Positions 21,695-43,248 of a DNA stretch of 64,000 nt are shown here, in pieces (positions within the stretch are counted from its first letter, which is position 1; each line of letters starts with the position of its first letter). The notes under the pieces are model-generated. The model made no database searches. It had not been told where the DNA came from and saw nothing but the letters and a program-made list of their open reading frames with translations. Origin of the DNA: Paeniglutamicibacter quisquiliarum (lineage in GTDB: Bacteria; Actinomycetota; Actinomycetes; Actinomycetales; Micrococcaceae); contig NZ_JAHRED010000003.1 of assembly GCF_019084045.1 (NCBI RefSeq), positions 434,001 to 498,000 of the forward strand, given 5' to 3'. A program made the position numbers and the translations under genes.

Positions 21695-22291
21695 CGTTCG
21701 CTCCGGGGGATGCCCGGCGGGATACGGCGGCCCGCTGCCGGTGATTCCCTGCGGGTCGAGCGCGTGAAGCAATCTTCACCGGTCACGGTCCGGGCGCACC
21801 CGGAACATGACGATCCTGTCTGCGTCCATGGCATTGCCCCACACATCCCTCTGCCACGCCGGTCGAATGGCCCGTTTGGTCAACTGTGCACGAGCCCGCC
21901 GGGCGTTGGCAAGCATCCGCGCCAACCAATCGAGGCGCGTATCGGTCGGGTCGACAGGGCGTCCGGAACGACCCGGAGCCGGTGCCGCCGGTACTCTTCG
22001 GCTGCTACCCCTTGTGCAACGGGGGACCGCGCGGGAGACTTTGAACTGAAGGAAACGGACGGTGAAGCAGCGACTACCTCGGATCGAGTCGGATTCGGTG
22101 GGCATCGGTGGTTGCCGCCATGGGGGATAGGAGCACCAAGGAACACTTCATGCGGAGTGCTCTTGCCGGCTGGGGGGTCGGTAAGGCCAACAACTAGTGA
22201 TTTCTCGACGCTTGCCGTCTAAGATGGCCATCAACGCCGATGCATCTGGGCGTACTTGGGGAAAGAACCGATTTTGGGGACGGTTTTGACG
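21695..22291. other. Intergenic region upstream of the LuxR pair
   Basis: This stretch of nearly 600 bp has no gene I can support. Short open frames on both strands lack ribosome binding sites and recognisable domains. A GAGCAC/GTGCTC inverted repeat (22131-22136 and 22157-22162) and a possible TAAGAT -10 box (22220-22225) are the only signals noticed. It presumably contains the promoters of the VanZ-like gene and the first LuxR gene. Confidence 0.4.
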
Positions 22292-24916
22292 ATGCAGTAT
22301 TCGCTATTTTTAACTAAAAATCGCTTTCGAAATCCAACTGGGCTCTTGGGGGAGACCAGCATTTCGTTGGCGCCGGACGACCCGGCCGAAATGATCCACG
22401 CGATTCTCACGGACCCCGAGGGCGGCGGGGCCGTATTGATCGGGCCCGCGGGCAACGGGCGCCAGGATGCCTTCGAGGCAGGGTTCTCCCGCCTCGAGGT
22501 CAAACCGGAACTCATCAGGCTCAACGGCACCAGTTTTGCAGCGGGCGTGCCCAGGGGTGCCCTCGCCTTCCTGCTGTCGCGCCTGGACGTCGGCATCGAA
22601 GCCACTCGGCACGAAGTCATCCACGGTATTGCTGGAATTCTCTGCCCCTTGGGGCATCCGGCGGTGGTGCTTCTCGGGCGGCCCGAGCTCGTCGACGAGC
22701 AGTCGGCATCGATTCTGGCGCAACTGGCCGCCATGCGGAAGATCGTCCTGGTGGTGATGTGCGAACGTCTTCAGGACCTTCCCCAGGACGTCCTGTCGCT
22801 GTACCGCTCCGGTCGGCTGGCCAGGATTAGCTTGCGCAGCATGGACATGGGCGAGACGCGCACTTTCCTGGAGCATGAACTTGGCGGGTCCATGTCCATG
22901 CTGGCCGCCGCCACGCTGCGTTATCTGACCGACAACAGCCGCGACCTGATGTTAAAGCTGTGCCGCATCTGGGTCACCGACGGGCAACTGCAGCAGCATC
23001 GGGGCGTATGGGTCCTGAGGCTGGGAGGGCTCGGTACCGGGCCGGCATTGAACACCCTGATGAACTCGATGCTCTCCGGTCTCAAGCAACCCGAGCGCCA
23101 GTTGCTGCAGGTCCTGGCCATCGGCGGTCCGATAGCACTCGACGTGGTGCACCGAAACGGGTCGGCGCAGGAACTGGACGCGTTGTGCAGAGGCGGACAT
23201 GTCCGCATAGTCCAGGGACCCATCGACCAGGTGCAAATCGGTGTTCCGTTGCTGTCGATCCTGTTGCGCGAAAGCCTCGACGAGGATCTGCGACTGAACG
23301 TTGAAGACCGCCTGAGCACCTTGCACACCGATCCGGCCGCCGCGCTGGCGCGTACTTCGATGCGCGCATTGCTGGACACCGGAGCCGTCCAAGAGATGGT
23401 CGCCGTGGCCCAGGACTTCGGCGTGGACGGTTTTGCCGCCGAGGCCTGGCCGCGCGACCCGGAGCACCGGATCGCCATCCTGAACCTGCACGTGAAGGCG
23501 CTGCTGAGGCTCCGTCGAACCGACGAGGCCGCAACCGTGTTGGCACGCGCCCAGGCAGGATTCAAGGAAGCACCTCACGGGAACGGCCTGGGCGACCGAA
23601 TGGCTTCGGCCGGACAGGAACTGGAGCTTCTCAGAAATCGAATTCTCATGGGCGTGAATGGCGGGCGCCCGGACAGCGACAGGCAAACGGACAGAATCCT
23701 GGACGAATGCAACGAGTGGCACACCGAATCGTTGCACTTCCGGGCATTGACGGTGCAATCTCTCGAATGGGCATCCCGCACACGGCAAGGCGACGCCCTT
23801 AACGCAGTCGAACAGATCAGCGACGACCTGGCCGGGCTAAGGATCAATGGTCAATTTGACGAGATCTTCCCCGCAGACGAAGCTGCCGAGCTCGAAGCCA
23901 TTCTGCTGCAGACCCAGTTGATGGCGGGGGATTGGAGGGGTGCCGCACACCGGGCAGGGGTGTTGGCCAGCGGCCAATACAGCAACCCGAGGGTCACCGC
24001 CTACGCCGATGCGGTCCAGGGCATCCTGTTCGGTCTTTTTGACGAGGCCGAACTCGCCCTGAAGGCACTTAATCCCGCCATGCAACAGTTCGTGTTCACT
24101 CCGGACGTGGCCGAACGTGCAGCTGTGGAAGCTGTCGCGACTTTTTCGCTGGTGTCCATCGGGCAGAGTGCCGAGGCCACCGAACTCCTGCTCCAGGAGC
24201 AGGAACCCGCACCGTCCGCAATGCCGCTGAACTTCTTTTCCTGGGTGGCTGAGGTCTTTGCGTCCCTTTCGGTGGCCCGCATCAATGACCCGGGCTCGGG
24301 GCAGTCCCGGATCGCGGCCTTTGCCGACAAGGTCCATGACGCCGGATACGCGGGATTGGAGATGCACACGCTGGCGTTGGCACTCAGGTTGGGGCATTTT
24401 GGGGTTGCAGATCGTCTCCACCGAGTCGCCGGGGACTGCCAGGGTTCGGTTGCGCTGAACTATGCGCGATTGGCGGCGGCAGTTTGCAACGAGGAACGCA
24501 GCGGAATCCCCAACGTCCTGGAAGAGCTGGGACGATCCGGCCAGGTGCTGTTGTCGGTCCCTACCACCAATGCGTTGGTCGAATTCATGGACCCCAAGGA
24601 ACAACGCAGATTGGCGACCTACTTGTCCCGTCTGAGGCGCCAATATGCAGGCAACCAAAGCGAGGACCTAGCCGCGGAAAAGGCACCGGGGGAGAAACTG
24701 CCCAGCTGGATGAAGGAACTGACCAAACGAGAGTCACAGGTGGCGCTTCTGGCCATAGACGGCCGTGGAAACTCCGAGATTGCCCGCAGCAGCGGAGTTT
24801 CGATCCGTACCGTGGAAGGCCACTTGTACCAGGTGTATTCCAAGCTGCAGGTACGAAATCGACAGGAGCTCACCGCCCTTGACAGAGCCACCAGGCGTGC
24901 ATCGGGTAAGAGATGA
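22292..24916 (+). CDS. Large LuxR-family regulator with a degenerate ATPase domain
   Basis: An 874-residue protein with the layout of LAL/MalT-like regulators: an N-terminal STAND-type NTPase region, a long helical repeat region, and a C-terminal LuxR/NarL helix-turn-helix (LTKRESQVALLAIDGRGNSE followed by IARSSGVSIRTVEGHLYQ). The P-loop position reads IGPAGNGRQDAF (about 50-61), so the Lys and Ser/Thr needed for nucleotide phosphate binding are missing. The Walker B position reads VVLLGRPELVDE without the Asp pair. ATP hydrolysis is therefore unlikely. ATG 22292 is chosen, with GGGGACGG upstream; TTG 22256 is an alternative. The stop overlaps the ATG of the following regulator (ATGA). Confidence 0.85.
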   Translation: MQYSLFLTKNRFRNPTGLLGETSISLAPDDPAEMIHAILTDPEGGGAVLIGPAGNGRQDAFEAGFSRLEVKPELIRLNGTSFAAGVPRGALAFLLSRLDVGIEATRHEVIHGIAGILCPLGHPAVVLLGRPELVDEQSASILAQLAAMRKIVLVVMCERLQDLPQDVLSLYRSGRLARISLRSMDMGETRTFLEHELGGSMSMLAAATLRYLTDNSRDLMLKLCRIWVTDGQLQQHRGVWVLRLGGLGTGPALNTLMNSMLSGLKQPERQLLQVLAIGGPIALDVVHRNGSAQELDALCRGGHVRIVQGPIDQVQIGVPLLSILLRESLDEDLRLNVEDRLSTLHTDPAAALARTSMRALLDTGAVQEMVAVAQDFGVDGFAAEAWPRDPEHRIAILNLHVKALLRLRRTDEAATVLARAQAGFKEAPHGNGLGDRMASAGQELELLRNRILMGVNGGRPDSDRQTDRILDECNEWHTESLHFRALTVQSLEWASRTRQGDALNAVEQISDDLAGLRINGQFDEIFPADEAAELEAILLQTQLMAGDWRGAAHRAGVLASGQYSNPRVTAYADAVQGILFGLFDEAELALKALNPAMQQFVFTPDVAERAAVEAVATFSLVSIGQSAEATELLLQEQEPAPSAMPLNFFSWVAEVFASLSVARINDPGSGQSRIAAFADKVHDAGYAGLEMHTLALALRLGHFGVADRLHRVAGDCQGSVALNYARLAAAVCNEERSGIPNVLEELGRSGQVLLSVPTTNALVEFMDPKEQRRLATYLSRLRRQYAGNQSEDLAAEKAPGEKLPSWMKELTKRESQVALLAIDGRGNSEIARSSGVSIRTVEGHLYQVYSKLQVRNRQELTALDRATRRASGKR

Positions 24917-27600
24917 GCAAGCCGAGCCACAGGGGCAGGGAAAGCTCGGTCGAATACCGGGAACTGCTCAACATTGTCACTAGTCCGGAGCCCAGTGGCG
25001 CCATCGTCCTTGGCAGCATGGGCATGGGCAAGACAAGCCTGGTCGAGGCGGTGCTGGCACACCCCGATGCGCCCGCGCCGGTGATGAGGCTTTATTGCAG
25101 CCCCACCCTCTCAGAGGTGCCTTATGGCGTCCTGTCACCATATTTGGGTTCCCTGCAACGCATCGAGGGTCCTGTTGAGGTTCTCCGCGAAATCAACACG
25201 GCACTCGAGGCCGCCGCCACGGGGGACGTGAAACCCGTCGTTGTGGTGGAGGACGCACACCACCTTGACACCGAATCCGCATTCGTATTGTCGCTCCTGA
25301 TGGAAAACGCTGCCCTGAAATTGGTCGCCATCGGCGCCGGCGTCATTGACAGCGGTTCCGCGCTGGCGGCGCTTTCCGATTCCGACGCACTATCCACCAT
25401 CGTTGTGCAGCCGCTTGGCCTCGAGGGCGTCCGGGCACTCGTTGAGGAGCAGCTTGGCGGCAAGATCAGCGAGGGAACAGCAAGGATCATCCTGGCCACG
25501 AGCGGAGGGAATCCGAGTTTCGTCCGGGCCAACGTGGAATCCTGTCGTGAGCAGGGAATCCTGTTCAACGACCGGGCGTTTGCCCACGACAGCGGAGATG
25601 CGCCATCCATCTGGATCCTTGCGCGCCCATTGCCGGCGGTGGACGACCGGTTGACGGACATGGTGACGGAAATTCACGGACTTACCCCTCATGCAGAACA
25701 GGGCACGCTCGAAATGCTGGCCCTCGCAGGTCCCTTGCCGAGCAAGCTCTTGTCGATTTGCGATATGCCCTACCGACACCTGCTCGACTCCGGGGAACTG
25801 CGGCAGACCACGAATTCCACGATGCGCATCAACTCCGCGCTGCATGAAACCATGTTGCGCCAGCTCGTCCCGGCGCAGCGGAAGGCCGAGCTGTTCGCCG
25901 TGTGGGACAGGGCGCGCGCAGACCTAGGCCTACAACCCACACCCACGCAGGTGCTGTGGGGAATCGAAATCGGCGTCGAAGCCGAAACCGACGTGGTGCT
26001 CCGTGCCGTGCAACAGGCAGCGGACGCCTTGGACTTCGAGCTGGCGTGGAAGTTGTGCGTCGCCTCGGACATCGCGGCGCGAAATGAGCGGGGAACGCTA
26101 CTGGAAGCCGCCGTGCTACTGGGAATGGGTCGATATTACTCGTCTCGGTCGCTGCTGGTCCGGCTCCTGGACCAGGCCAGGGATGCCTCCATGCTGACCT
26201 CGGCATATATGCAATTGCTTATTGTTCTGAGCAACCTCGATGTCGAGGCCCATGACAGGCAAGCCATCGAGCGACTGTGGGAAGCCCGTGCCAGTGAATT
26301 CGATGACAACTCCGGCCGTGGCGAAATCCTAAGAGGACATCGAACCGCGGAGCTGCTCCTGGAGCGCTGGAGCTCCTTGAACACCCCCGACGCGGAACGC
26401 CCGTCAACGGCCGAGCTGGAAAACCTTCTTGAGGATCCCGACATGACCCCCGAGGGGTGCCTCGTCGTGCTGTCCCTGCTCAGTGACCTCAACAGCATCG
26501 AGGGACGCAACGAGACTGCGCTGGATCTTGCACGTCAAGTGCTCAAGGGTCTGGGACAGAATCCTCGGCTGGAGGGAACCTACCAGTCAAAGACAGTCTT
26601 TCGGGTGGGCTGGAACCTGATCATATGCGGTCGGTACGTCGAGGCCAATGAGTTCATCGATTCGTACCAAGGCCAATCCATTCATTTGATCGTCCATCGC
26701 CAGGGCATGCTCGCCCTGCTTCATGGGCTGGGTGACCTGTTGCAAGGCCGGAAAGCAGCAGCCACTGAGGAACTTGCCGAAGCCGTCATGGAACTCCGCC
26801 TTAGGGACCCCGCCCAGTTGTTGGCGCTGGCATTGCGCCTGTATCAATGGACCTCGGGACAAACCGGTGTTGCCGTGTCCGACCGAGGTGCACGGCAACG
26901 TCGAGATCCCGCATCGAATGACCGGCAACGAGCAGAAGCCCTGGCCGAGACCCCTTCCAGCCGTCGCCTCTTTGCCAGGGCAGTCGCCGCGGGCATGGGA
27001 CATCCCCTGGGGCACGAAAAGGTTTCCGACTTTCCGCTCGTCGAACGCGAATTGCTGCTATGGAAAACAGCGCAATTGGACCACGAGGAGCTGCAAAGCG
27101 ATCCCGCCCAAGAGCGGCTGGCGTACCTGGTCCGAGGCCACGAGGGACCCCGGGCGACGCTGGCAGCACGCCTGGTCTCTTCACGGGGAATGAACGACGC
27201 CGAGGCCCTGGAGAGCCTGGGGCGAGATGCCCTGCATCAGGGCGATTTCCGCATCGCGACCGAGGCGTTGACCAGAGCAGCACTTAGATACCTGGCCGAA
27301 GGGGAACCGCGCGTCTGCGGTGCAATCCTGCGCCAGGTGGGGCGCATCATCGATGAGCAGGGCCTGGTGGCCGAAAACCACATTGCCCGGGCCTTGGCCT
27401 TCACGGAACTGACGGCACGGGAAAAGGAAATCGTGGATCTGGCACGTTCGGGGATGAATAATGCGCAGATTGCCCGGGCGTTGACCGTTTCCCAACGGAC
27501 AGTGGAAGGACATCTCTACCGGGTGTTCTCCAAGTTGGGTATTTCCGAGCGCTCGGAACTGAACGACATGGACCGCGAGTCGGGTAATGGCGGCAGCTGA
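24913..27600 (+). CDS. Large LuxR-family regulator with an intact ATPase domain
   Basis: An 895-residue LAL-type regulator and apparent paralogue of the upstream protein. Here Walker A is complete (GSMGMGKTS, residues 34-42) and Walker B reads VVVVEDAHHLD (109-119). A helical TPR-like middle follows, then a C-terminal LuxR helix-turn-helix (LTAREKEIVDLARSGMNNAQ then IARALTVSQRTVEGHLYR). It is translationally coupled to the first regulator by a 4-bp overlap. The pair lies directly in front of the exopolysaccharide locus on the same strand, so a role as its regulator is likely but inferred from position. Confidence 0.88.
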   Translation: MSKPSHRGRESSVEYRELLNIVTSPEPSGAIVLGSMGMGKTSLVEAVLAHPDAPAPVMRLYCSPTLSEVPYGVLSPYLGSLQRIEGPVEVLREINTALEAAATGDVKPVVVVEDAHHLDTESAFVLSLLMENAALKLVAIGAGVIDSGSALAALSDSDALSTIVVQPLGLEGVRALVEEQLGGKISEGTARIILATSGGNPSFVRANVESCREQGILFNDRAFAHDSGDAPSIWILARPLPAVDDRLTDMVTEIHGLTPHAEQGTLEMLALAGPLPSKLLSICDMPYRHLLDSGELRQTTNSTMRINSALHETMLRQLVPAQRKAELFAVWDRARADLGLQPTPTQVLWGIEIGVEAETDVVLRAVQQAADALDFELAWKLCVASDIAARNERGTLLEAAVLLGMGRYYSSRSLLVRLLDQARDASMLTSAYMQLLIVLSNLDVEAHDRQAIERLWEARASEFDDNSGRGEILRGHRTAELLLERWSSLNTPDAERPSTAELENLLEDPDMTPEGCLVVLSLLSDLNSIEGRNETALDLARQVLKGLGQNPRLEGTYQSKTVFRVGWNLIICGRYVEANEFIDSYQGQSIHLIVHRQGMLALLHGLGDLLQGRKAAATEELAEAVMELRLRDPAQLLALALRLYQWTSGQTGVAVSDRGARQRRDPASNDRQRAEALAETPSSRRLFARAVAAGMGHPLGHEKVSDFPLVERELLLWKTAQLDHEELQSDPAQERLAYLVRGHEGPRATLAARLVSSRGMNDAEALESLGRDALHQGDFRIATEALTRAALRYLAEGEPRVCGAILRQVGRIIDEQGLVAENHIARALAFTELTAREKEIVDLARSGMNNAQIARALTVSQRTVEGHLYRVFSKLGISERSELNDMDRESGNGGS

Positions 27601-27970: not shown

Positions 27971-27990
27971 ACGAGTGTCGGGTCACTCGT
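27971..27990 (+). promoter_or_regulatory. Candidate activator operator of the EPS locus
   Basis: A perfect inverted repeat ACGAGTG-N6-CACTCGT. The octamer CGAGTGTC of the left arm also occurs 32 bp upstream (27940-27947) and again at 48956-48963 in front of the last EPS genes. Its centre lies about 43 bp before the start predicted from a TACGAT box, the position where class II activators bind. A link to the LuxR pair is inferred. Confidence 0.5.
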
Positions 27991-28011
27991 GCCTGACTTT
28001 GGCTCGCAACT

Positions 28012-28017
28012 TACGAT
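28012..28017 (+). promoter_or_regulatory. Possible -10 box of the EPS operon
   Basis: TACGAT with no recognisable -35 box at the right distance; the expected -35 position directly abuts the inverted repeat. This fits an activator-dependent promoter with a start near 28024. Confidence 0.35.
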
Positions 28018-28174: not shown

Positions 28175-29752
28175 ATGACGCAAATTAGTGGAAAACTGGA
28201 TGGGCGCAAGCTTGGCATCATTCGGGCCTGGACGTCTTCGACCCTGACGACCACCTCTTCGGTTGCCGGCGCCAACACCGGAGTCGGCGGTCGAAGCTAT
28301 CGCCGCCGCTTGCTTCTGACCGACGTCTTGATCATCTGTCTGGCTTGCGTCCTGCCGGCCGCGGTGGCGATGGGTGCGGTCCCGGATGCCGGGGGAGGCG
28401 GCCGTGTACTGGCCCAGAACCTCGGATTGACGAACCTTGCCGCCACCCCGCCGCATAGTCTGGCCCTGGCCGGTATCATCATCGGCGGATGCTGGATCCT
28501 GAGCCTGAGGTTCTTTAGGACCCGTGCCATTGGCCGAATCGCCGTGGGGATGCAGGAATACAAGTTCCTCGCCTATGCAACCGTCGCGCTGGCCGGGGCC
28601 ATAGGGAGCCTGGCACTTGTCACCGACAGCACCGACCTGCGAATTTTCGTCGTCCTCAGCCTGCCTGTGGGTCTCGGCGCACTCCTGATCGGGAGGTGGG
28701 GATGGCGCCAGTGGCTGGCAGTCCAACGGGCGCGGGGCTTCGCATTGAGCAACGTCCTGATTTACGGCCAAGCCAAGGACGCCCCCTACGTGGTGCGCCA
28801 GATATCCCGAAAGTCGGGCCCCGCCTACCGCGTGGTCGGGGTTCTCCTTGATGGCGAACCCGACATCGACGCGGAGAACAAGATCCGCGCGGCGGACCCG
28901 ACCTTGCCGCTGATCTACGACTCGGGCCGAATCGAGGAAGAGGTGCGGCGCCTGGGCGCCGACGCGTTGGTGGTGGCCGGCCCCCTGACCGGGGGAAACC
29001 GCGCCATCCAGGAGTTGGGCTGGCGGCTGGAAACTTGTGCCACCCAGCTGATCCTCGTGTCCTCGCTGACCAACGTCTCCGGCCGCCGAGTGCGCATGAG
29101 CCCGGTGGACGGCATGCCGCTGCTGCACGTTGACCTGCCCGCGTTTACGGGCTGGCGCTACGGACTCAAGCGCGGCATGGACGTCGCGTTCTCGGCCGCC
29201 GTGCTGTTGATGCTCTCTCCGATCCTTTTGGTCATTGCCTTGGTCATCCGCCTGGACAGCCCAGGGAAGGTCTTTTTCAAGCAAGAGCGCGCCGGCCGCG
29301 ACGGCACTCCGTTCAAGATGTACAAGTTCCGCACCATGGTGGAGGACGCCGAGGCACAACTGGCCATCCTGCAGCTGCACAATGAGGGAGCGGGCCCGCT
29401 GTTCAAGCTCAAGGACGACCCCCGAGTCACCCGCGTGGGGAGCTGGCTGCGCCGGCACTCCCTGGACGAACTGCCGCAGTTCCTCAATGTCCTCAAGGGC
29501 GACATGTCGGTGGTGGGTCCGCGCCCGCCGCTGCGAAGGGAAGTCGCCGAATACGAGGGGCACACTTACCGCAGGCTCTACATCAAGCCCGGGGTCACAG
29601 GACTGTGGCAGGTCAGCGGACGCTCGAACCTGGACTGGGAGGAAAGCGTTCGGCTGGACCTGTACTACGTGGAGAACTGGACGGTCCTCAGCGACCTGCG
29701 CATCGTGTGGCGCACTTTCAAAGTCATGATTCAACCGGAAGGGGCCTACTGA
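28175..29752 (+). CDS. Polyprenyl glycosylphosphotransferase priming EPS synthesis (WbaP/CpsE type)
   Basis: This membrane enzyme transfers a sugar phosphate from a nucleotide sugar to undecaprenyl phosphate and so starts the repeat unit. The 525-residue protein has four or five N-terminal membrane helices, a CoA-binding-like middle domain, and a C-terminal bacterial sugar-transferase domain (about 328-520). That domain shows KRGMDVAFS, FFKQERAGRDGTPFKMYKFR, DELPQFLNVLKGDMSVVGPR and the GVTGLWQVSGRS motif. ATG 28175 has a GGGGGCA site; the frame is open further upstream but without a good start signal. It is the first gene of the EPS array, overlapping the next start by one base (TGATG). Confidence 0.93.
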   Translation: MTQISGKLDGRKLGIIRAWTSSTLTTTSSVAGANTGVGGRSYRRRLLLTDVLIICLACVLPAAVAMGAVPDAGGGGRVLAQNLGLTNLAATPPHSLALAGIIIGGCWILSLRFFRTRAIGRIAVGMQEYKFLAYATVALAGAIGSLALVTDSTDLRIFVVLSLPVGLGALLIGRWGWRQWLAVQRARGFALSNVLIYGQAKDAPYVVRQISRKSGPAYRVVGVLLDGEPDIDAENKIRAADPTLPLIYDSGRIEEEVRRLGADALVVAGPLTGGNRAIQELGWRLETCATQLILVSSLTNVSGRRVRMSPVDGMPLLHVDLPAFTGWRYGLKRGMDVAFSAAVLLMLSPILLVIALVIRLDSPGKVFFKQERAGRDGTPFKMYKFRTMVEDAEAQLAILQLHNEGAGPLFKLKDDPRVTRVGSWLRRHSLDELPQFLNVLKGDMSVVGPRPPLRREVAEYEGHTYRRLYIKPGVTGLWQVSGRSNLDWEESVRLDLYYVENWTVLSDLRIVWRTFKVMIQPEGAY

Positions 29753-30846
29753 TGAGCATCGCACCCGAAACGAGCGTCTACCCCGCACTGCGCGTTGCCG
29801 TGATCGGCGCCGGCTATTGGGGACCCAACCTCGCCCGCAACTTTGCAATGAGTTCCGACTGGGAATTGGTGGCCATCTGCGACATGGACCTGGAACGTGC
29901 CGCCGCACTGGCACGCAAAACGGGAGAGCCAGCCGTTGTCTCCTCCGTCGAGGAGCTGCTGCGGGACCACGCGATCGATGCGGTTGCCATTGCCACGCCG
30001 GCGCGGACCCATCACGGCATCGCCATGGCGGCCCTCGCCGCGGGCAAGCACGTCGTGGTGGAGAAGCCGCTGGCCGACAACAGCGTGCGCGGTACCGAGA
30101 TGGTGGAAGCTGCACGTGCCGCCGGGCTCATCCTGATGGCCGACCACACCTACTGCTACACCCCGGCGGTGCTCAAGATCCGCGAGCTCCTGGAAGCCGG
30201 CGAACTCGGCGAGATCCTCTACATCGACTCGGTGCGCATCAACCTGGGCCTCGTGCAGCCGGACGTGGATGTCTTCTGGGACCTGGCCCCGCACGACCTG
30301 TCCATCCTGGACTTCGTGCTTCCCGGCGGCCTCAACCCGCTGTCGGTCACCGCCCAGGGCGCCGACCCGCTGAACGCCGGCAAGGCCTGCGTGGGCTACA
30401 TGAACATGCCGCTGGACAACGGGGCCCTGGCCCACATCAACGTCAACTGGCTCTCCCCGACCAAGATCCGCCAAATGGTGATCGGCGGCAGCCGCAAGAC
30501 CCTGGTCTGGGACGACCTGAACCCGCAACAGCGCCTGAGCATCTTCGACCGCGGGGTCAACCTTGACCGCCAGGCGATGATCCGGGCCGATGCCGAGGAC
30601 CGCAAAGGCGCCACCATCTCATACCGGCTGGGCGACACCTGGTCGCCCGCACTATCGGAATTCGAGCCCCTGGGCTTGATGGTGGCCGAGCTGGCCTCAA
30701 GCATTCGGTCCGGCAACGCAGCGCCGACCGACGGGCTCTCGGCGCTGCGCGTGTTGAAGGTCCTTGAAGAGGCAAGCGCAAGCCTGGCAACCGGTTCGTT
30801 GCCGCAAACCCACAATCCTGATTCCAGTTTGGAGACTGCATCATGA
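29752..30846 (+). CDS. Gfo/Idh/MocA family nucleotide-sugar oxidoreductase (WbpB/WlbA-like)
   Basis: A 364-residue NAD(P)-dependent oxidoreductase with an N-terminal Rossmann motif VIGAGYWGPNLARNF, the family motif VVVEKPLADN (Lys at about 105) and the WDLAPHDLSILD stretch. WbpB/WlbA enzymes oxidise C3 of UDP-GlcNAc uronic acid before transamination. That role fits the DegT aminotransferases nearby and the WbpD-like acetyltransferase at 48.2-48.8 kb. The substrate is inferred from this set. No UDP-GlcNAc 6-dehydrogenase is in the window. It overlaps both neighbours. Confidence 0.82.
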   Translation: MSIAPETSVYPALRVAVIGAGYWGPNLARNFAMSSDWELVAICDMDLERAAALARKTGEPAVVSSVEELLRDHAIDAVAIATPARTHHGIAMAALAAGKHVVVEKPLADNSVRGTEMVEAARAAGLILMADHTYCYTPAVLKIRELLEAGELGEILYIDSVRINLGLVQPDVDVFWDLAPHDLSILDFVLPGGLNPLSVTAQGADPLNAGKACVGYMNMPLDNGALAHINVNWLSPTKIRQMVIGGSRKTLVWDDLNPQQRLSIFDRGVNLDRQAMIRADAEDRKGATISYRLGDTWSPALSEFEPLGLMVAELASSIRSGNAAPTDGLSALRVLKVLEEASASLATGSLPQTHNPDSSLETAS

Positions 30847-31865
30847 ACGAGAACCTGAAGTCATTGGCGGGGGGTCGCTATCTGGTGACGGGCGGGGCCG
30901 GAACCATCGGCTCGGAGATCGTCGACCAACTGCTGGCGGCCGGTGCGGCGCGCGTCGACATCCTGGACAACCTGGTGCGCGGGCGCCGGAGCAACATCGC
31001 CGAGGCGCTGGCCACCGGAAAGGTCAACCTCATCGAGGGGGACATCGCCGACAGGGCATTGGTCAGGGAGCTCGTGCAGGGGCGGGACGCGGTGTTCCAC
31101 CAGGCCGCGATCCGCATCACCCAATGCGCCGAGGACCCACGACTGGCGGTGGACGTGATGGTCAACGGAACGTTCAACGTCCTGGAAGCTGTCGTCGAGG
31201 CCAGGGTGCCCAAGATCGTTGCGGCCTCCAGTGCCTCGGTGTACGGCATGGCGGAGGAATTTCCCACGACCGAGCGCCACCATCCGTACAACAACGACAC
31301 CCTCTACGGCGCGGCCAAGACGTTCAACGAGGGAATGTTCAAGAGCTTTCGTGCCATGTACGGCCTGAACTACGTGATGCTGCGCTACTTCAACGTGTAC
31401 GGGCCCCGCATGGATGTCCACGGCGCCTACACCGAGGTGCTGGTGCGGTGGATGGAACGCATCGCCGACGGGCTGCCGCCGCTGATTTTCGGTGACGGAA
31501 GCCAGACCATGGACTTCGTCTTCTCGAAGGACATCGCACGCGCCAACCTGCTCGCGGCGGCCGGCGGCATCAACGAGGGCGTGTACAACGTCGCCAGCGG
31601 GACCGAAACCAGCCTGCGGCAACTGGCGGAAACGCTATTGGTGGCCATGGACTCGGACCTGGGCATCGACTTCGGCCCCGAGCGGGCGGTGAACTCGGTG
31701 GTACGCAGGCTGGCCGACACCTCCGCGGCCCGACGCGATCTGGGATTTGAGGCAACCACCGGGCTGGAGGAGGGGCTGGAAAAGCTGGTCGAATGGTGGG
31801 CCCCGCTTCGCGAGGAAGTGGCCGCCGGGCGCAACGCTGGCCACAAGGTCGGCACCAGAACCTAA
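30843..31865 (+). CDS. NAD-dependent nucleotide-sugar epimerase/dehydratase
   Basis: A 340-residue extended SDR enzyme with VTGGAGTIGSEIVDQLL, the FHQAAIRITQC segment, the catalytic SSASVYG and YGAAKTFNEG (Tyr-x3-Lys), then LRYFNVYGPRMD and the DFVFSKDIARANLLA motif. It resembles WbpP-type UDP-GlcNAc 4-epimerases and related C4 epimerases or dehydratases; which one cannot be settled by eye. It overlaps the oxidoreductase gene by ATGA and is followed after 33 bp by an aminotransferase. Confidence 0.82.
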   Translation: MNENLKSLAGGRYLVTGGAGTIGSEIVDQLLAAGAARVDILDNLVRGRRSNIAEALATGKVNLIEGDIADRALVRELVQGRDAVFHQAAIRITQCAEDPRLAVDVMVNGTFNVLEAVVEARVPKIVAASSASVYGMAEEFPTTERHHPYNNDTLYGAAKTFNEGMFKSFRAMYGLNYVMLRYFNVYGPRMDVHGAYTEVLVRWMERIADGLPPLIFGDGSQTMDFVFSKDIARANLLAAAGGINEGVYNVASGTETSLRQLAETLLVAMDSDLGIDFGPERAVNSVVRRLADTSAARRDLGFEATTGLEEGLEKLVEWWAPLREEVAAGRNAGHKVGTRT

Positions 31866-31898
31866 ATGGACATCGGGACTTCCTTGGGGGGAAGAACA

Positions 31899-33038
31899 AT
31901 GAATCGCATCAGTGTCATGAAACCGTGGCTGGGCGCGGCCGAATCCGAGGCGCTCGCCGAGGTCGTAGCCTCCGGCTGGGTTGCGCAGGGACCACGGACC
32001 GCCGCCTTCGAAGGGGCCTTCGCGGAACACCAACACGTGCAACACGCGGTGGCAACCTCCAGTTGCACCACCGCGCTGCAGCTTGCCTTGATCGTGGCGG
32101 GCGTGAGGCCGGGGGACGATGTCGTGGTCCCATCCTTCTCCTTCATCGCCACCGCTAACGCACCCACCTACCTGGGTGCCCGACCCGTGTTCGCCGACGT
32201 CGAGGAATCGACGGGAAACCTCTCCGCGGACACCGTTGCGGCGGTGCTGACCGGAAAGACGACGGCAATTATCGCTGTGGACCAGGGCGGCATGCCCCTG
32301 GACCTGGAACCGCTGCGGCACTTGTGCGACGAACGCGGAATTGCCCTGGTTGAGGACGCCGCCTGCGCCGCCGGATCCACCTACAGGGGAAACCCGGTGG
32401 GGGGAGGTGCCGACGTGAGCGCGTGGTCATTCCATCCCCGGAAGCTCCTGACCACAGGGGAGGGCGGGATGCTTACGACCAACAACGCCGAGTGGGCGGC
32501 CCGGGCCCGGCGCCTGCGCGAACACGCCATGGACGTCTCCGCGGCCGAGCGCCACGGCTCGACCCTGGCCCCGCAGGAACACTACGGCGAGGTCGGTTAC
32601 AACTTCCGGATGACGGATCTGCAGGCGGCGGTCGGGCTGGTGCAGTTGGGCAAGCTCGATGCCATGGTGCAACGCCGACGTGAACTTGCCCAGCGGTATC
32701 GCGAGGCATTCGGGGGAATGAGTGGACTGCGCTGTGCCCGGGACCCGGAGCATGGCACGTCGAATTTCCAGTCTTTCTGGGTGGAGGTCCTGCCGGAATT
32801 CCGGATGGACCGGGAACAGCTGATTGAAAAGCTGGCCGCGGATGAAATATCCGCACGCCGCGGCATCATGGCGGCGCACCGGCAGCCGGCGTATGCGGGA
32901 CACCCGGGCATGGTCTCACCCTTGCCTGTCACGGAGCGCCTGACCGACAACACGCTGATCCTGCCGCTGTACCACGAGCTTGCCGAGCATGAGCAGGACC
33001 GCGTGATCTCCAGCGTGCTCACCGCCGGAGGTGGATGA
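31899..33038 (+). CDS. DegT/DnrJ/EryC1/StrS family aminotransferase
   Basis: A 379-residue PLP-dependent sugar aminotransferase that would convert a keto nucleotide sugar to an amino sugar. The PLP lysine is Lys182 in SFHPRKLLTTGEGG; SSCTTALQLAL, PSFSFIATANA and VEDAACAAGS are family motifs. ATG 31899 is chosen over ATG 31866 because GGGGGGAAG stands 6 nt before it. It overlaps the beginning of the acyltransferase region, so the pair may make an N-acylated amino sugar, for example from the RmlB product. That is inference. Confidence 0.9.
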   Translation: MNRISVMKPWLGAAESEALAEVVASGWVAQGPRTAAFEGAFAEHQHVQHAVATSSCTTALQLALIVAGVRPGDDVVVPSFSFIATANAPTYLGARPVFADVEESTGNLSADTVAAVLTGKTTAIIAVDQGGMPLDLEPLRHLCDERGIALVEDAACAAGSTYRGNPVGGGADVSAWSFHPRKLLTTGEGGMLTTNNAEWAARARRLREHAMDVSAAERHGSTLAPQEHYGEVGYNFRMTDLQAAVGLVQLGKLDAMVQRRRELAQRYREAFGGMSGLRCARDPEHGTSNFQSFWVEVLPEFRMDREQLIEKLAADEISARRGIMAAHRQPAYAGHPGMVSPLPVTERLTDNTLILPLYHELAEHEQDRVISSVLTAGGG

Positions 33039-33039
33039 A

Positions 33040-33753
33040 ATGGCGCGGGTGCTCTTGATTGCCGCTGGCGGGCTGGCTCGCGAGGTGATCTCCTCCATCA
33101 GGCAAACCGGAGACCATGACGTCGTCGGTCTGCTCGACGACGACACGTCCCTGCACGGGCGCTTGGTCGGCGGCGTCCGCGTCCTGGGAGGGCCGGAACT
33201 GGCGGCAGGGATCGATGCAGGACTGCTGGTTTGCGCGGGCCGGGGCAGCGCACGCGCCGCCGTCGTGGATCGACTCGAGGCGCTGGGCATCGGAGCCGCC
33301 CGCTACGCCACACACGTCCATGGCTCCGTGGGCCTCGGCGCGGGTTCGCACGTGGGCGGCGGCACCATCCTGTTGGCCGGTTGCGTCGCAACCAGCGATG
33401 TTCTCGTCGGCCGGCACTGCGTGCTGATGCCCCGCGTCACCTTGACCCACGATGACAGGCTTGGGGACTTCGTGACGATGGCCGCAGGCGTGGCCTTGGG
33501 CGGGCGCGTCACCGTGGGTCCTGGAGCATATCTGGGAATGAACGCCTCGGTGCGCCAGGACCTGGCAATCGGGACCGGTGCGGTGTTGGGCATGGGGTCG
33601 GTCCTCCTGCAGGACCTTCCCGCCGGTGAAGTCTGGGCGGGAAACCCCGCCCGGATGCTGGCAAGACATCCCGGCGGCAAGGCGAGGGGCGACGCGCCGG
33701 CCCGGCGAACTGTCAACGAAATGTATCCGGAGCAACAGGGGGCGAACCCATGA
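33040..33753 (+). CDS. PglD/NeuD-like sugar O- or N-acyltransferase
   Basis: A 237-residue protein with an N-terminal Rossmann-like nucleotide-sugar binding part (LLIAAGGLAREVISSIRQ, VVGLLDDD) and a C-terminal left-handed beta-helix of hexapeptide repeats. The general base His is expected in LTHDDRLGDFVTMAAGV, and VWAGNPARML closes the helix. PglD-type enzymes acetylate the 4-amino group of a dideoxy sugar. The GGAGGT site at 33027-33032 selects ATG 33040 over GTG 33031. It sits between two aminotransferase genes and overlaps the second by ATGA. Confidence 0.85.
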   Translation: MARVLLIAAGGLAREVISSIRQTGDHDVVGLLDDDTSLHGRLVGGVRVLGGPELAAGIDAGLLVCAGRGSARAAVVDRLEALGIGAARYATHVHGSVGLGAGSHVGGGTILLAGCVATSDVLVGRHCVLMPRVTLTHDDRLGDFVTMAAGVALGGRVTVGPGAYLGMNASVRQDLAIGTGAVLGMGSVLLQDLPAGEVWAGNPARMLARHPGGKARGDAPARRTVNEMYPEQQGANP

Positions 33754-34892
33754 ACACCGTCCCAGTGGACGTACAACGGATCCCCTTGGTGGATCTGCAG
33801 GCACAGCAGCGCGAAATCCAGGAAGTAGTGGATGCCGGACTCGCCAGGATCTTTGAAAGCACGGCATTCATCGGAGGCCGGGCGGTTACCGAGTTCGAGG
33901 ACGCCTACGCCGGTTTCCTGGGCGCCAGGCACTGTGTGGGGGTCGGCAATGGGACGGACGCCCTTGAGCTGGCCCTCCGTGCCAGCGGGGTCGGACCCGG
34001 GGACGAGGTCATCCTCCCGGCGAACACCTTCATTGCCACCGCGGAGGCGGTCAGCAGGGTGGGAGCGGTCGTCGTGCCCGTGGACGTGGACCCGGAGTAC
34101 CTGCTCATCGATCCGCTGGCCGTGGCCAGGGCAGTCACGTCCCGGACCCGTGCCATCATGCCGGTCCACCTTTTCGGACAGACCGCCTTTGTGGAGCAGT
34201 TAGAACCCATCGCAGCGGCCTGCGGCGCGGTCATCATCGAGGACGCGGCCCAATCCCAGGGTGCCAAGCGGTTGGGCCGCAGCGCCGGTACGTTGGGGGT
34301 CGCCGCCGGAACCAGTTTCTATCCGGGCAAGAACCTGGGGGCCGCGGGGGACGCCGGCGCGGTCCTGAGCAACAACGAAGAACTCGCCGATCGCGTGCGC
34401 ATGCTATCGGCGCACGGAAGCCGGGAGAAATACCGGCACGAGGCGGTCGGCGTGAATTCCCGGTTGGACGCGGTGCAGGCGGTGGTGCTCAGTGCCAAGC
34501 TGGCACATCTGGACCGCTGGAACGGCTTGCGGCGCGAGGCGGCCCGACGCTATGGGCACTTGTTGTCCGAAGACCCAGCAATCCTCTTGCCGCGGCAAGC
34601 CGAAGGCAACGAGGATGTCTGGCACCTGTATGTGGTTCGGGTGCCGGAGCGGGACAGGGTCTTGGCTCAACTGAATGCCGGCGGCATAGGTGCAGGCATC
34701 CACTACCCGACACCGGTGCACCTGACCGAGGCGTTCTGGCACTTGGGCCATGGGCCGGGATCTTTCCCCGTGGCGGAACTCGCCGCGCAGCAAATACTCT
34801 CGCTGCCGCTATATCCGCACATCTCCGAGGCCCAGCAGGAATCTGTAGCGCGCTTCGTGCGATCGGCGCTGTACGGCAAGGGGGAGCAATGA
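33750..34892 (+). CDS. Second DegT/DnrJ/EryC1/StrS family aminotransferase (WbpE/FdtB-like)
   Basis: A 380-residue PLP-dependent sugar aminotransferase beginning with the typical IPLVDLQAQQREI. It has GVGNGTDALELALRA, PANTFIATAEAV, IEDAAQSQGA and the PLP lysine (about 194) in SFYPGKNLGAAGDAGA, with C-terminal IHYPTPVHL. This pattern fits enzymes acting on 3-keto sugars, such as WbpE or FdtB, which would match the oxidoreductase upstream. It differs clearly from the first aminotransferase, so the two probably serve different sugars. Confidence 0.9.
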   Translation: MNTVPVDVQRIPLVDLQAQQREIQEVVDAGLARIFESTAFIGGRAVTEFEDAYAGFLGARHCVGVGNGTDALELALRASGVGPGDEVILPANTFIATAEAVSRVGAVVVPVDVDPEYLLIDPLAVARAVTSRTRAIMPVHLFGQTAFVEQLEPIAAACGAVIIEDAAQSQGAKRLGRSAGTLGVAAGTSFYPGKNLGAAGDAGAVLSNNEELADRVRMLSAHGSREKYRHEAVGVNSRLDAVQAVVLSAKLAHLDRWNGLRREAARRYGHLLSEDPAILLPRQAEGNEDVWHLYVVRVPERDRVLAQLNAGGIGAGIHYPTPVHLTEAFWHLGHGPGSFPVAELAAQQILSLPLYPHISEAQQESVARFVRSALYGKGEQ

Positions 34893-36061
34893 TGAAACGC
34901 ATGCGCGTGATCGTCTGTCCGCATGAACTTGCCATGGGCGGCAGCCAAATCAATGCCATAGAACTTGCCGCCAAATTGAAGGCACGCGGACACGACGTGA
35001 TTGTCTATGCTCCCCCGGGACCGCTCGGGAAACTCGTGACGGAGCTCGGGCTAGAGCATGTTGCCAGCCCGGATGGCACCCGGATGTCCCTTGCATGGAT
35101 GCAGGGGCTGGGACGCCTCGTCAAGGACCACGGGGCGGATATCGTTCACACCTATGAGTGGGCCCCCAGCCTGGGAGCAGCGTGGCGACTGTTGCCGATC
35201 GCGAAAACCCACTTGGTGATGACGGTGCTGTCGATGGACTTGCCCGACTTCCTGCCCACGCACGTGCCGTTGATCGTGGGGACCGAGGCCTTGCGCCGTC
35301 ATGCAACCCGGCGCAGGGCCCCGGTCCATCTCATGGAACCGCCTATTGACACGGACCTAAATAGCCCCGGCTCCATGCCGCCGATGCCGTTCAATCACGC
35401 CGGACTGGTCGTTTCAATGGTCTGCCGCATTACGGACGAGCTCGACAAGGCCGATGGGGTGCTGCAGGCGATCGAGGCCGTGGCCGGGCTCGCAGTCGAG
35501 CACGACATCCGCTTGGTCATCGCGGGCGACGGCGAAGCCATGGGAAAAGTCAGGATCTTGGCCGATGACGCCAACGGGCAGTCCAACCGAGAAATAGTAC
35601 GACTGCTTGGAACCCTGCCCGATCCCCGAGCGGCGTACCACCAATCCGACATCTGCCTTGGCATGGGAAGTTCGGCACTCAAGGCCCTGGCCTTCGGAAA
35701 GCCATTGATCGTTCAAGGAGCCAGCGGCTACTGGAAAACGCTGACTCCTGAAACCCTTCCGGAATTTGAACTACAGGGATTCTATGGGCGGGGAGGCAGC
35801 GGCGCAGCAGGGCTCGGCCAGGAGCTGGGCAGGCTTTGCCTTGATGACGAGCTGCGGCAGCGCCTGGGGACTTGGGGGCGGGAAGTCGTGGAAGAAAAGT
35901 ACAGTCTCTCCAGCGCCGTCGTTGCCCTCGAAAAAATCTACTTGGAGGCCATGGCAGCGCGCACAAACCGTTTCATCGGTCCCGCAAGCATGACCAAATC
36001 CGCGTATGACTTTGGAAAATTCATCATGGCGAGAAGAATCCGTGCCGGGGTGGCGTCATGA
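34889..36061 (+). CDS. Glycosyltransferase, GT4-like
   Basis: A 390-residue cytoplasmic GT-B type protein: N-terminal GGSQINAIELAAKLKARGH (acceptor domain), then a nucleotide-sugar domain with LVIAGDGEAMGKV and YHQSDICLGMGSSALKALAFGKP. The last segment is the place of the GT4 EX7E motif, but the usual glutamates are Ala/Leu/Lys here. The donor-binding mode may therefore be unusual, or it belongs to a divergent family. It overlaps the aminotransferase gene by ATGA. Sugar specificity is unknown. Confidence 0.75.
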   Translation: MMKRMRVIVCPHELAMGGSQINAIELAAKLKARGHDVIVYAPPGPLGKLVTELGLEHVASPDGTRMSLAWMQGLGRLVKDHGADIVHTYEWAPSLGAAWRLLPIAKTHLVMTVLSMDLPDFLPTHVPLIVGTEALRRHATRRRAPVHLMEPPIDTDLNSPGSMPPMPFNHAGLVVSMVCRITDELDKADGVLQAIEAVAGLAVEHDIRLVIAGDGEAMGKVRILADDANGQSNREIVRLLGTLPDPRAAYHQSDICLGMGSSALKALAFGKPLIVQGASGYWKTLTPETLPEFELQGFYGRGGSGAAGLGQELGRLCLDDELRQRLGTWGREVVEEKYSLSSAVVALEKIYLEAMAARTNRFIGPASMTKSAYDFGKFIMARRIRAGVAS

Positions 36062-36219
36062 AAACCCTCCATCCCGATGCCGGGCCCACGTGGGAGAATC
36101 CACGTTGCGCGTCTGCCGGGTCCGAGGCCCGGCAGCCTACCGCTTCGCGTGAATCCTCGCGGTTAATGGTGGTTCCGCGACACCAGAGCAGACCCGGAGT
36201 TGGACATGCTTCAAGTTGA
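36058..36219 (+). CDS. Short coupled open frame, doubtful gene
   Basis: An ATG overlapping the glycosyltransferase stop (ATGA) opens a 53-codon frame ending within the start of the flippase gene. The peptide is polar, without domain or membrane segment, and no relative is recognised. Every other gene junction around it is coupled in the same way, which is the only argument for translation. It may instead just carry ribosomes to the flippase start. Confidence 0.2.
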   Translation: MKTLHPDAGPTWENPRCASAGSEARQPTASRESSRLMVVPRHQSRPGVGHASS

Positions 36220-37717
36220 CCTTGGTATGGGGGTTCGCAGGGGGCTCGTCTGGAGTTCGCTGAATGCGGTGGTGCTCCGGATTGGTACCTTCGCCATGGG
36301 AATCTTTCTTGCCCGCATTCTGGCTCCCGAGGAATTCGGGGTGTTCGCCATCGCCTTGACCGTGCAGGCGGTCCTGATGACCTTGGCAGATTTTGGCCTC
36401 AGCACGGATCTGATTCGTTCCAAGAACCACCAAGCCAAGAGCCCCACGGTCGGAACACTGGGCCTGATCATGGGCACACTGCTGTTCGTTCTCATGTGGT
36501 CCAGTTCCCAGGCGACGGCCAATTTGCTGGGGAGTCCCGAAGCCGGACCCGTGATTGCCGTCATGTCTGGATCGCTCCTCCTTGCCGGGCTCGGCGTGGT
36601 GCCCTATGCAAAGCTGCAGCGGGATTTTCAACAGAAACGCCTGTTTGGAATCAGCCTTCTGGATTTTGTTGTGGTTAACACCTTGACCGTTGTTCTGGTG
36701 CTGTTGGGTTGGGGAGTCATTTCCTTGGCCATCGCTCGGTTGGCGGCCCAATTTGCAACTCTCATTGCACAATTTGTCCTCGCCGGGGTGAAACCCAGAT
36801 TTGGCTTCAACCGCGTGCTTGCTCCGGAGGTCATTTCCTTCGGGCTCCCGGTGGCCGGGGCAAACATGCTCTCGTGGATATTGCTCAATGTGGACAACAT
36901 AGCGATCTCCAGCATGGCGGGTCCTGTGAGTCTTGGCTTCTACTACCTGGCATTCAATGTCTCAAATTGGCCCATGAGCATGCTTGGCCAAGTCGTCCGC
37001 TCCATTTCCCTGCCCGCGTTCGCGCGAGTGGTGGGTGGCCAAAAAGATCGGAGCCTCGCGCTCGCCCTTGGCCCGGTTTGGGCAGTGGCGCTGTTTGCCG
37101 GTTTCATGCTTTCGACCCTGTCGGAACCCTTGGTCAGGGTCGTTTATGGGGAACGCTGGTTACTCTCGGCGGGAATCCTGGCGTTCCTGGGAGTGTTTGG
37201 AGCGCTTCGCATGATTTTCGATCTCTTCGTTTCGTACATGCTTGCCAAGGGTCATTCGACCCGAGTCCTGATCGTGCAGGCAATATGGATCGTCGGGCTC
37301 GTGCCCAGCTTGGTATTGCTGGTGCGCCAACAAGGTGCTTTGGGAGCCGGTCTGGCGCATGTGATCGTGTCGACTTGCCTAGTGCTCCCTGCCTACCTCG
37401 TCGTCCTACACCGGAGCCAAGCGGATATCAGGCTGATACTCCGAAACCTGGTTACTCCTGCGGTGGCCGCCGTACCAGCCGTTTGCGCCGCGTACTTGGT
37501 CGGGACGGCAGTGGACGCGGATCTCATGAAACTTTTTCTCGGGGGAATGGCCGGATCTGTGGTCTACGCCTGCGCCATATTTCGGTGGTTTCGGGCCAGA
37601 ATGCACGACCTGACGAACTACGCGGGACAAGTCGGGCAGGTCGGAGGCGATGTTCCCGAATTCGCCCCCAACGATACCGCGACGGCCAGTCGTGGCGAGA
37701 AAGGGGGAACAGCATGA
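36206..37717 (+). CDS. Wzx-like polysaccharide flippase (MOP/PST family)
   Basis: A 503-residue protein made almost entirely of 12-14 hydrophobic helices with the family opening GLVWSSLNAVVLRIGTF and LARILAPEEFGVFAIA. Such proteins flip lipid-linked repeat units across the membrane for Wzy-dependent polymerisation, and a Wzy-like protein is encoded 7 kb downstream. ATG 36206 has GGAG 6 nt before it. The gene is visibly richer in A and T than the sugar-synthesis genes before it. It overlaps the next glycosyltransferase by ATGA. Confidence 0.9.
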   Translation: MLQVDLGMGVRRGLVWSSLNAVVLRIGTFAMGIFLARILAPEEFGVFAIALTVQAVLMTLADFGLSTDLIRSKNHQAKSPTVGTLGLIMGTLLFVLMWSSSQATANLLGSPEAGPVIAVMSGSLLLAGLGVVPYAKLQRDFQQKRLFGISLLDFVVVNTLTVVLVLLGWGVISLAIARLAAQFATLIAQFVLAGVKPRFGFNRVLAPEVISFGLPVAGANMLSWILLNVDNIAISSMAGPVSLGFYYLAFNVSNWPMSMLGQVVRSISLPAFARVVGGQKDRSLALALGPVWAVALFAGFMLSTLSEPLVRVVYGERWLLSAGILAFLGVFGALRMIFDLFVSYMLAKGHSTRVLIVQAIWIVGLVPSLVLLVRQQGALGAGLAHVIVSTCLVLPAYLVVLHRSQADIRLILRNLVTPAVAAVPAVCAAYLVGTAVDADLMKLFLGGMAGSVVYACAIFRWFRARMHDLTNYAGQVGQVGGDVPEFAPNDTATASRGEKGGTA

Positions 37718-38805: not shown

Positions 38806-38830
38806 ACACGAAACGGTTTATCGGAGGTTC

Positions 38831-38863
38831 ATGAAAAATCAAAGCGAAACTGAATTTTATTGA
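38831..38863 (+). CDS. Possible 10-residue leader peptide
   Basis: In the AT-rich gap before the next glycosyltransferase, a CGGAGG sequence lies 3 nt before an ATG that opens a 10-codon frame (MKNQSETEFY). The spacing is short for efficient initiation. It might be a leader controlling downstream genes, or chance. Confidence 0.2.
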   Translation: MKNQSETEFY

Positions 38864-38891
38864 ATATCAAATAGCTAAACTAGGGGGTAAA

Positions 38892-42336: not shown

Positions 42337-42433
42337 AGTCCACTGTCACTGGGGGTTAGGCAACATGGACAATAATTCACGTTTAAGCATGGTTGGAGAA
42401 AAAAATTTACCGCGGCAGATGGCGGTGGAGTAG

Positions 42434-43237: not shown

Positions 43238-43248
43238 GGATTGCAGCC

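Follow-up and report, generated by a model that had tools for sequence, protein, structure and literature searches.

A paralogous pair of LAL-type regulators, one with a degenerate ATP site, as candidate co-activators of an exopolysaccharide operon in Paeniglutamicibacter quisquiliarum

The 64,000-nucleotide stretch of contig NZ_JAHRED010000003.1 analysed here (the window), which sits on the 4.44 Mb genome of Paeniglutamicibacter quisquiliarum, encodes two adjacent large ATP-binding regulators of the LuxR family (LAL), hereafter A and B, immediately before an exopolysaccharide (EPS) locus. We propose, with a probability of about one half, that A and B co-activate the EPS operon and their own genes, with A acting in a hetero-complex as a partner of the STAND class (signal transduction ATPases with numerous domains) that is not itself an ATPase. 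The proposal builds on computed evidence of several kinds, i.e. motif loss, shared ancestry, adjacency and order of the genes, constraint on the NTPase domain of A, synteny with EPS genes and conservation of an operator and promoter, from which we infer the hetero-complex, the binding of A and B to the element, the direction of regulation and the existence of a signal. The hetero-complex is put forward as a well-motivated hypothesis.

Results

Two LAL-type regulators of 874 and 895 residues had been described in the initial annotation as overlapping by 4 bp, the first devoid of the P-loop Lys and Ser/Thr and of the Walker B acids, the second with both motifs intact and each with a complete LuxR helix-turn-helix (HTH). 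All of these features were recovered (Table 1). The open reading frames (ORFs) share the ATGA, the 874-aa frame of A being taken from 22292 although the mechanical ORF begins at a TTG at 22256; such four-base overlaps are frequent in bacteria. A Pfam scan of both proteins retrieved GerE in A (residues 809-861, 4.5e-13, 49 bits) and in B (residues 832-885, 1.2e-13, 50.8 bits), whereas AAA_16 (1.4e-07, 32.6 bits with a cut-off of 32.6) and AAA_22 (4.6e-06, 27.4 bits with a cut-off of 27) were retrieved in B only and no NTPase model was listed for A at E<=1. The aligned P-loop position reads GPAGNGRQD in A and GSMGMGKTS in B, and hhalign comparison of the two profiles over 837 columns (probability 100) placed the loop of A directly on the P-loop of B. 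A motif scan of the whole A protein found GK[ST], [AG]xxxxGK and hhhh[DE][DE] nowhere else; an intact but shifted P-loop, the finding that would have contradicted the earlier description, is therefore ruled out by the alignment and by the lack of any GK[ST]. A and B are full-length homologues. B has the N-terminal P-loop NTPase, the C-terminal LuxR/GerE HTH and the size (895 aa, with ~800-1000 expected) of a LAL. In A the C-terminal LuxR/GerE HTH and the full-length LAL homology are present, and the predicted protein is classified as a pseudo-LAL, homologous to LALs, because it lacks the Walker A GxxxxGK[ST] and Walker B hhhhD[DE] motifs of the family and has no other match to them along its length.

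Table 1. Features of the regulator pair, the candidate promoters and the EPS locus (positions in the window)
Feature	Positions	Strand	Description	Basis
A	22292..24916	+	LAL-type regulator, 874 aa, LuxR HTH intact, STAND NTPase domain degenerate	
B	24913..27600	+	LAL-type regulator, 895 aa, intact Walker A and Walker B	
Gene overlap	24913..24916	+	ATGA, stop of A and start of B, 4 bp	
Degenerate P-loop of A	22442..22465	+	GPAGNGRQ, residues 51-58	
Degenerate Walker B of A	22664..22696	+	VVLLGRPELVD, residues 125-135	
HTH of A	24716..24874	+	LuxR/GerE, residues 809-861	Pfam GerE
Walker A of B	25012..25038	+	GSMGMGKTS, residues 34-42	alignment
Walker B of B	25237..25269	+	VVVVEDAHHLD, residues 109-119	alignment
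HTH of B	27406..27567	+	LuxR/GerE, residues 832-885	Pfam GerE
Candidate promoter of the pair	22193..22225	+	ACTAGTG-N20-TAAGAT	
Candidate operator of the EPS promoter	27972..27991	+	CGAGT-N8-ACTCGTG	
-10-like element	28012..28017	+	TACGAT, 22 nt after ACTCG	
First EPS gene	28178..29752	+	polyprenyl glycosylphosphotransferase (Bac_transf)	
Remaining EPS block	29791..44598	+	GFO/IDH, epimerase, DegT x2, hexapeptide, GT4, Wzx, rhamnosyltransferase-like, Wzy_C	

Structure models and substitution rates indicate that the degenerate domain is maintained. A and B were modelled as single chains with AlphaFold (AF2), A from a 42-row alignment. The model of A, with a predicted local distance difference test score (pLDDT) of 87.5, forms a strand (46-50), a loop and a helix (57-66) in the P-loop region; its best PDB match is a TPR-repeat STAND protein (6mfv, E 9.8e-08), followed by CED-4 (8jol) and, at rank 5, the human apoptosome, and the low global template-modelling score (0.24) supports membership of the class and not close kinship. 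The model of B (pLDDT 88.0) matched Cdc6/Orc, MuB, RuvB, subunits of the APC/C and, at rank 33, a wheat resistosome. In both models an AAA+-like NTPase domain precedes a TPR-like solenoid, the arrangement that defines STAND proteins. Ratios of non-synonymous to synonymous substitution (dN/dS), derived by hand from computed substitution values in five locus comparisons, were ~0.04, 0.44, 0.15, 0.18 and 0.28 for the NTPase domain of A, all <1, and 0.08, 0.19, 0.15, 0.24 and 0.32, in the same order, for that of B; the first comparison is G. soli vs G. protophormiae, and the second, L116/L117, combines few changes with the weakest constraint. The constraint on the dead domain of A is thus similar to that on the live domain of B, with one weaker case.

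These data bear on two alternative views of A. It is very improbable that A is a decaying gene heading for loss, as the missing P-loop and Walker B, its shorter length (692-732 aa) in many same-genus strains and the L116/L117 ratios (~0.44 for the dead domain vs 0.19 for B) might suggest, given that the other four comparisons (~0.04-0.28) are like those of B and that in the dead-A branch 19/19 members keep a long open frame with an HTH at its end. A is no wreck but a pseudo-STAND protein. The constraint on the domain, together with the invariance of G51, G54 and R57 across the 9 aligned closest A proteins, could instead mean that A is not truly dead, its GxxGxGRR loop binding a nucleotide or another phosphate ligand so that A senses a different small molecule. 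We hold this to be improbable, since the loop is not kept (GDRRE in the Micrococcus/Citricoccus branch, GDDR or ADDR in many same-genus strains) and both Walker B acids are missing in the A of the window.

The loci compared were retrieved through their similarity to A or B, and a script removed identical copies; the pair counts therefore describe those loci and not all LALs, and the trees are from FastTree only. At E<=1e-20 A was matched in 23 and B in 43 of 119 genomes (that of the window included), and a scan of named genomes with the A alignment yielded at least 76 loci from its best 80 matches, so that a pair confined to the window genome is ruled out. The 122 loci compared (window included) contain 321 distinct giant LuxR ORFs, assigned by hidden Markov models to class A (175) or class B (146), and the A/B pair is present in 98 of them. 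Neighbours within 100 bp are arranged as A>B in 137 cases, as B>A in 3 and as A>A in 3, the commonest A>B gap being -4 (57/137 pairs). The question of whether the two genes occur apart, raised when the pair was first noticed, was examined within these loci: 137 of the 146 B-class proteins have an A within 100 bp upstream, and two of the 9 others start <300 bases from the edge of the retrieved locus. In a 120-row tree built without the Walker columns, the classification into three groups required 16 label changes vs a shuffled mean of 53.8, and the A and B classes form largely separate sides of the tree. Pairwise distances among A and among B proteins correlate over 58 pairs (r = 0.97), which argues for joint inheritance. 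Both HTHs contain RTVEGHLY and differ in the residue after it, which is Arg in 136/136 B proteins having a residue there and Gln in 111/137 A proteins. No close relative was found on plasmids, where 3 records gave partial matches, none of them spanning 80% of A.

In several relatives A is preceded, at ~50-160 bp, by another giant LuxR gene, the third paralogue 'C' (L042:540-3242, L044:1022-3493, L047:6342-9098, L086:13536-16289, and others), which is not found there in the window; the P-loop Lys or its Ser/Thr is missing in all 11 members of the 'C' branch. An actinobacterial-type LAL pair was also seen on a contig titled Vibrio cholerae strain 35D (L135), probably a contamination or a mislabelled record.

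P-loop status was taken from MAFFT alignments, in which 3 of the 137 pairs were unclassifiable. Both loops are full in 84 pairs; A has lost the Lys next to a full B in 18, B has lost it next to a full A in 10, and A retains the Lys only with a B that has lost it in 9, the remaining classes being smaller. The second acid of Walker B, as a rule the catalytic residue, is kept in 25/135 A vs 128/137 B proteins. If ATPase competence is defined by motif as GK[ST] plus two Walker B acids, exactly one partner is competent in 99/134 pairs (A impaired in 87, B in 12) and both are in 5/134. In the branch of the 120-row tree that holds the A of the window, 19/19 members are without the P-loop Lys or the following Ser/Thr. 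The window pair belongs to one branch of a paralogous pair that is widespread and whose branches differ in their ATPase loss, which can affect B instead of A.

Downstream of B the window genes form a polysaccharide locus running from Bac_transf through Wzx-like and Wzy_C genes (the start codon of the transferase at 28178 was chosen by hand, the mechanical ORF beginning at 28085). In many relatives the two genes stay together, with ksgA-ispE-ABC-F on one side and, on the other, the priming polyprenyl glycosylphosphotransferase gene with which a polysaccharide locus begins. This transferase was found downstream and on the same strand in the retrieved flank of 60/98 pair loci, at a median distance of 745 bp. 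Counted per genome, it lies at most 12 kb downstream, in the same orientation, in 31/43 genomes with a LAL match, and among the remaining 12 some have it on another contig or lack a strong match.

The neighbourhood also shows traces of exchange. Between 17476 and 48138 of the window, ksgA, ispE and ABC-F are same-genus in sequence and the LAL pair and EPS genes are nearest to Glutamicibacter and relatives. The ABC-F gene, compared in 15 loci only, is at a distance of 0.07 from P. psychrophenolicus; for A, B and the transferase the nearest sequences are those of Glutamicibacter. The regulators and the EPS genes thus seem to have moved as a single block, replacing a resident one. The minus strand at 45385-48138 encodes a 917-aa fusion protein in which a WecG/TagA/CpsF domain is joined to two stretches of family-2 glycosyltransferase.

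The 580 bp that separate B from the transferase gene contain six CGAGT/ACTCG half-sites (starting at 27718, 27929, 27940, 27972, 27985 and 28042) vs 1.12 expected; over 52 gaps of this kind 152 were counted vs 79.8 expected. One pair of these half-sites, CGAGTGTCGGGTCACTCG at 27972-27989, is the sole perfect CGAGTG-N6-CACTCG in the whole genome. Further tests were run on 45 gaps (34,447 bp), seven near-copy loci having been dropped by eye, with first-order Markov resamples as shuffles; neither these 45 regions nor the 127 used below for A genes are phylogenetically independent. CGAGT-N7/8-ACTCG occurs 12 times in the 45 gaps vs a shuffle mean of 0.082 (maximum 2, of 500), and only 13 times in the loci as a whole (1.0 Mb). 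The core is asymmetric, TG following the right arm in 12/12 dyads and CA preceding the left arm in 0/12, and TANNNT stands exactly 22 nt after ACTCG in 10/12. The composite ACTCGTG-N20/21-TANNNT is present in 24/45 gaps (shuffle mean 0.02, maximum 1), often as part of CGAGT-N7/8-ACTCGTG, with spacings of 10-19 between the same elements in 0/45. Having the fixed distance from operator to -10 of class II promoters, the composite is predicted to be a class-II-like activator promoter. By P-loop type it was found in 14/21 gaps of pairs with both loops full, 9/16 with a dead A, 1/4 with both dead and 0/4 with a full A and a dead B.

A related element precedes the pair itself. Upstream of 127 A genes the ACTCGTG composite was found in 14 (shuffle mean 0.01) and its ACTNNTG version in 32 (shuffle mean 0.45). 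A generic sigma-70 scan returned nothing before A and one minus-strand match in the gap between B and the EPS genes, which also holds a terminator-like site at 27864-27878 (+; shuffles 0.8). Just before A, at 22266-22285, lies an AACCG...CGGTT repeat with a G-rich loop, kept in 7/12 window-type loci; as an RNA hairpin it was rejected, since in the four loci folded it did not outperform shuffles, and it is perhaps a protein site. Rfam gave no match at the gathering threshold in 17000-46000.

The link between element and pair was followed across genomes. CGAGT-N7/8-ACTCGTG occurs within 3 kb upstream of the transferase in 11/33 cases with a LAL upstream and in 0/82 without (Fisher p 2.7e-07, kinship uncorrected, from 115 transferase matches with weaker rows excluded). 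With the -10 included, 22 matches were obtained in 119 genomes, 9 of them assigned by eye from coordinates to LAL-pair intergenic regions, the window copy being the only match to this pattern in its genome in that search; a spacing control, with the -10 shifted by 2, matched 3 times in 74 genomes and, by coordinates, never at a LAL locus. When 2 mismatches are allowed, the operator shows no enrichment in the window (3 matches vs 5.03 expected), and for this reason only the perfect site carries weight. In a same-order genome (G111), CGAGTAGCACGATACTCGTG occurs identically at four places, as if in a repeated element.

Two further readings have to be considered at this point. The promoter might belong to another regulator of cell-surface genes, the LAL pair being linked to the EPS genes by location only, as 71 of the 84 exact CGAGT-N7/8-ACTCGTG matches found in the 119 genomes lie elsewhere than in the 3 kb downstream of a LAL match and some of these off-LAL matches agree well with the consensus. 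We give this little credit, the element being seen at 0/82 LAL-less transferases vs 11/33 with a LAL and the same promoter standing also upstream of the LAL genes themselves. Also unlikely, though less so, is that A and B are independent regulators merely sharing an operon, each as its own homodimer or oligomer on half-sites, with A ATP-independent (constitutive or ligand-only). Intact HTHs in both proteins, class A paralogues without an adjacent B (A 175, B 146) and half-sites found in isolation too, or as direct repeats with a 32-33 bp spacing, would fit such independence, against which stand the near-invariant A>B order, the 4-bp overlap in 57/137 pairs, the distance correlation of 0.97 and the asymmetric operator core. 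The direct repeats of CGAGT half-sites, ~three helical turns apart, were observed in the gaps of L090, L164 and the window (5 vs 0.16 in shuffles).

Discussion

Our preferred reading is that A and B form an old paralogous pair of STAND-type LuxR (LAL) regulators that would jointly activate, from a dedicated promoter, the adjacent EPS operon and their own gene pair. B of the window would be the ATP-binding and ATP-hydrolysing switch. A, in which STAND fold, solenoid and DNA-binding domain are all kept, is predicted to neither bind nor hydrolyse ATP in the normal way and would most likely be a non-catalytic partner of B, i.e. a signal receiver or holder, in the hetero-complex; this division of labour is proposed on the precedent of pairs of plant nucleotide-binding leucine-rich repeat receptors (NLRs) in which only the helper P-loop is needed. 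The DNA target of the complex would be the asymmetric inverted repeat CGAGT-N7/8-ACTCGTG, the right arm of which takes the position of a -35 box, and RNA polymerase would be recruited to the TANNNT -10. An A/B heterodimer with related half-site specificity, as in BldM-WhiI, would fit this operator, the HTHs being alike with one residue different and the operator halves sharing CGAGT with different extensions. The lux box is a ~20-bp inverted repeat overlapping the -35 position, with its centre near -42.5. If transcription starts ~7 nt after TACGAT, the operator centre would lie at ~-43, and because this is the lux box position a LuxR-type activator may replace the -35 contact. The geometry is thus like that of LuxR-type lux box promoters, whereas the protein N-terminus and the sequence (here CGAGT-N7/8-ACTCGTG) differ. 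The initial suggestion that the pair activates the EPS locus is strengthened by synteny and by a conserved operator and promoter element, absent from the initial description, common to the pair and the EPS genes, while the direction of regulation is one that we infer.

Several observations weigh against this reading. As to the EPS target, 38/98 pair loci are without a transferase in the retrieved flank; among ten ORFs scanned from three of these loci were a UDP-sugar dehydrogenase in two loci, a polysaccharide deacetylase in two and a GDP-mannose dehydratase-like gene in one, three of the ten giving no match. The composite promoter is absent in 21/45 gaps, including 4/4 with a full A and a dead B and 3/4 with both dead. 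Nor is there a genome-wide excess, as the promoter pattern gave 22 matches vs ~60 for its backward control (119 genomes, hand count) and 2 vs 5 in the own genome, and the backward control of CGAGT-N7/8-ACTCGTG without the -10 gave >84 vs 84. The evidence is therefore the placement of the matches; the second own-genome match was set aside as lying inside a frame that resembles, by eye, cytochrome oxidase subunit II. Concerning the ATPase roles, both partners are motif-impaired in 30/134 pairs and both P-loops are damaged in 9/11 same-genus relatives having the pair, so that ATP use by B is not universal. Two-way loss rests on few parsimony events (3 changes in the P-loop of A, 4 in that of B), and in 8 independent contrasts the 'exactly one live' pattern had a sign-test median p of 0.5. 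A rule, upheld by selection, of exactly one live ATPase in each pair was for this reason rejected, the counts being suggestive only with too few contrasts, and the swap of ATPase loss between A and B is a lead, not a result. From the original picture of one dead and one live partner, the degenerate site of A and the adjacency of the genes stand; the pair is not a one-off, and most same-genus pairs do not share its division.

LAL regulators are common in actinobacteria, and the known ones mostly regulate antibiotic clusters or maltose genes; little is understood of the way in which they couple ATP, signal and DNA binding. A and B resemble known LALs in size, helical solenoid, C-terminal LuxR HTH and, for B, the N-terminal P-loop NTPase domain, and differ from them in being two adjacent paralogues, with A lacking the ATP site and with EPS genes as the likely target. 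LALs are described as single ATP-dependent regulators (PMC9659744). Among the open-access titles and abstracts listed, none reports such a pair, a pseudo-ATPase LAL or the operator, which, for a search confined to open-access papers, is weak evidence; likewise no such pair is seen in the available portions of two papers on actinobacterial LuxR proteins (PMC9659744, PMC3466318). The pair offers a regulatory entry point to the surface polysaccharides of Arthrobacter-type soil bacteria and, as a natural pair with an ATP site in one member, its loss on the other member in some lineages and a predicted promoter, it is directly testable.

RcsA-RcsB and BldM-WhiI have N-terminal parts that are not STAND NTPases and are not known to be encoded by overlapping gene pairs; their likeness to A and B lies in the two LuxR-type HTH proteins, the heterodimer of A and B being a proposal. 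Both are heterodimers with one auxiliary partner, BldM-WhiI sites are non-palindromic and RcsAB acts on exopolysaccharide genes (PMC4125116).

The plant paired NLRs RRS1/RPS4 and RGA5/RGA4 are alike in that STAND-class partners are encoded side by side. The helper P-loop of these two pairs is needed and that of the sensor is not, and Pik-1/Pik-2 require both (PMC9528088); the RRS1 P-loop is described as needed for one function, the potentiation of RPS4 autoactive alleles (PMC8133560). The pairing of A and B and their asymmetric motif loss bear on such a sensor/helper arrangement only indirectly. The plant pairs are not known orthologues of A/B, their output is cell death and not DNA binding and their genes are generally head-to-head; the structural neighbours of the A model, CED-4 and the apoptosome, share with plant NLRs the broad class only. 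The pair might nonetheless serve as a simple bacterial model for paired STAND receptors. It is tempting to speculate, and we do so tentatively, on a bacterial sensor/executor STAND pair in which a pseudo-ATPase and an ATPase LAL, co-inherited in one operon, would form a hetero-oligomeric activator of surface polysaccharide genes, with the ATPase role swapped between lineages; such a pair would resemble the plant NLRs in the shift of roles and differ from them by its DNA-binding output and its readable operator.

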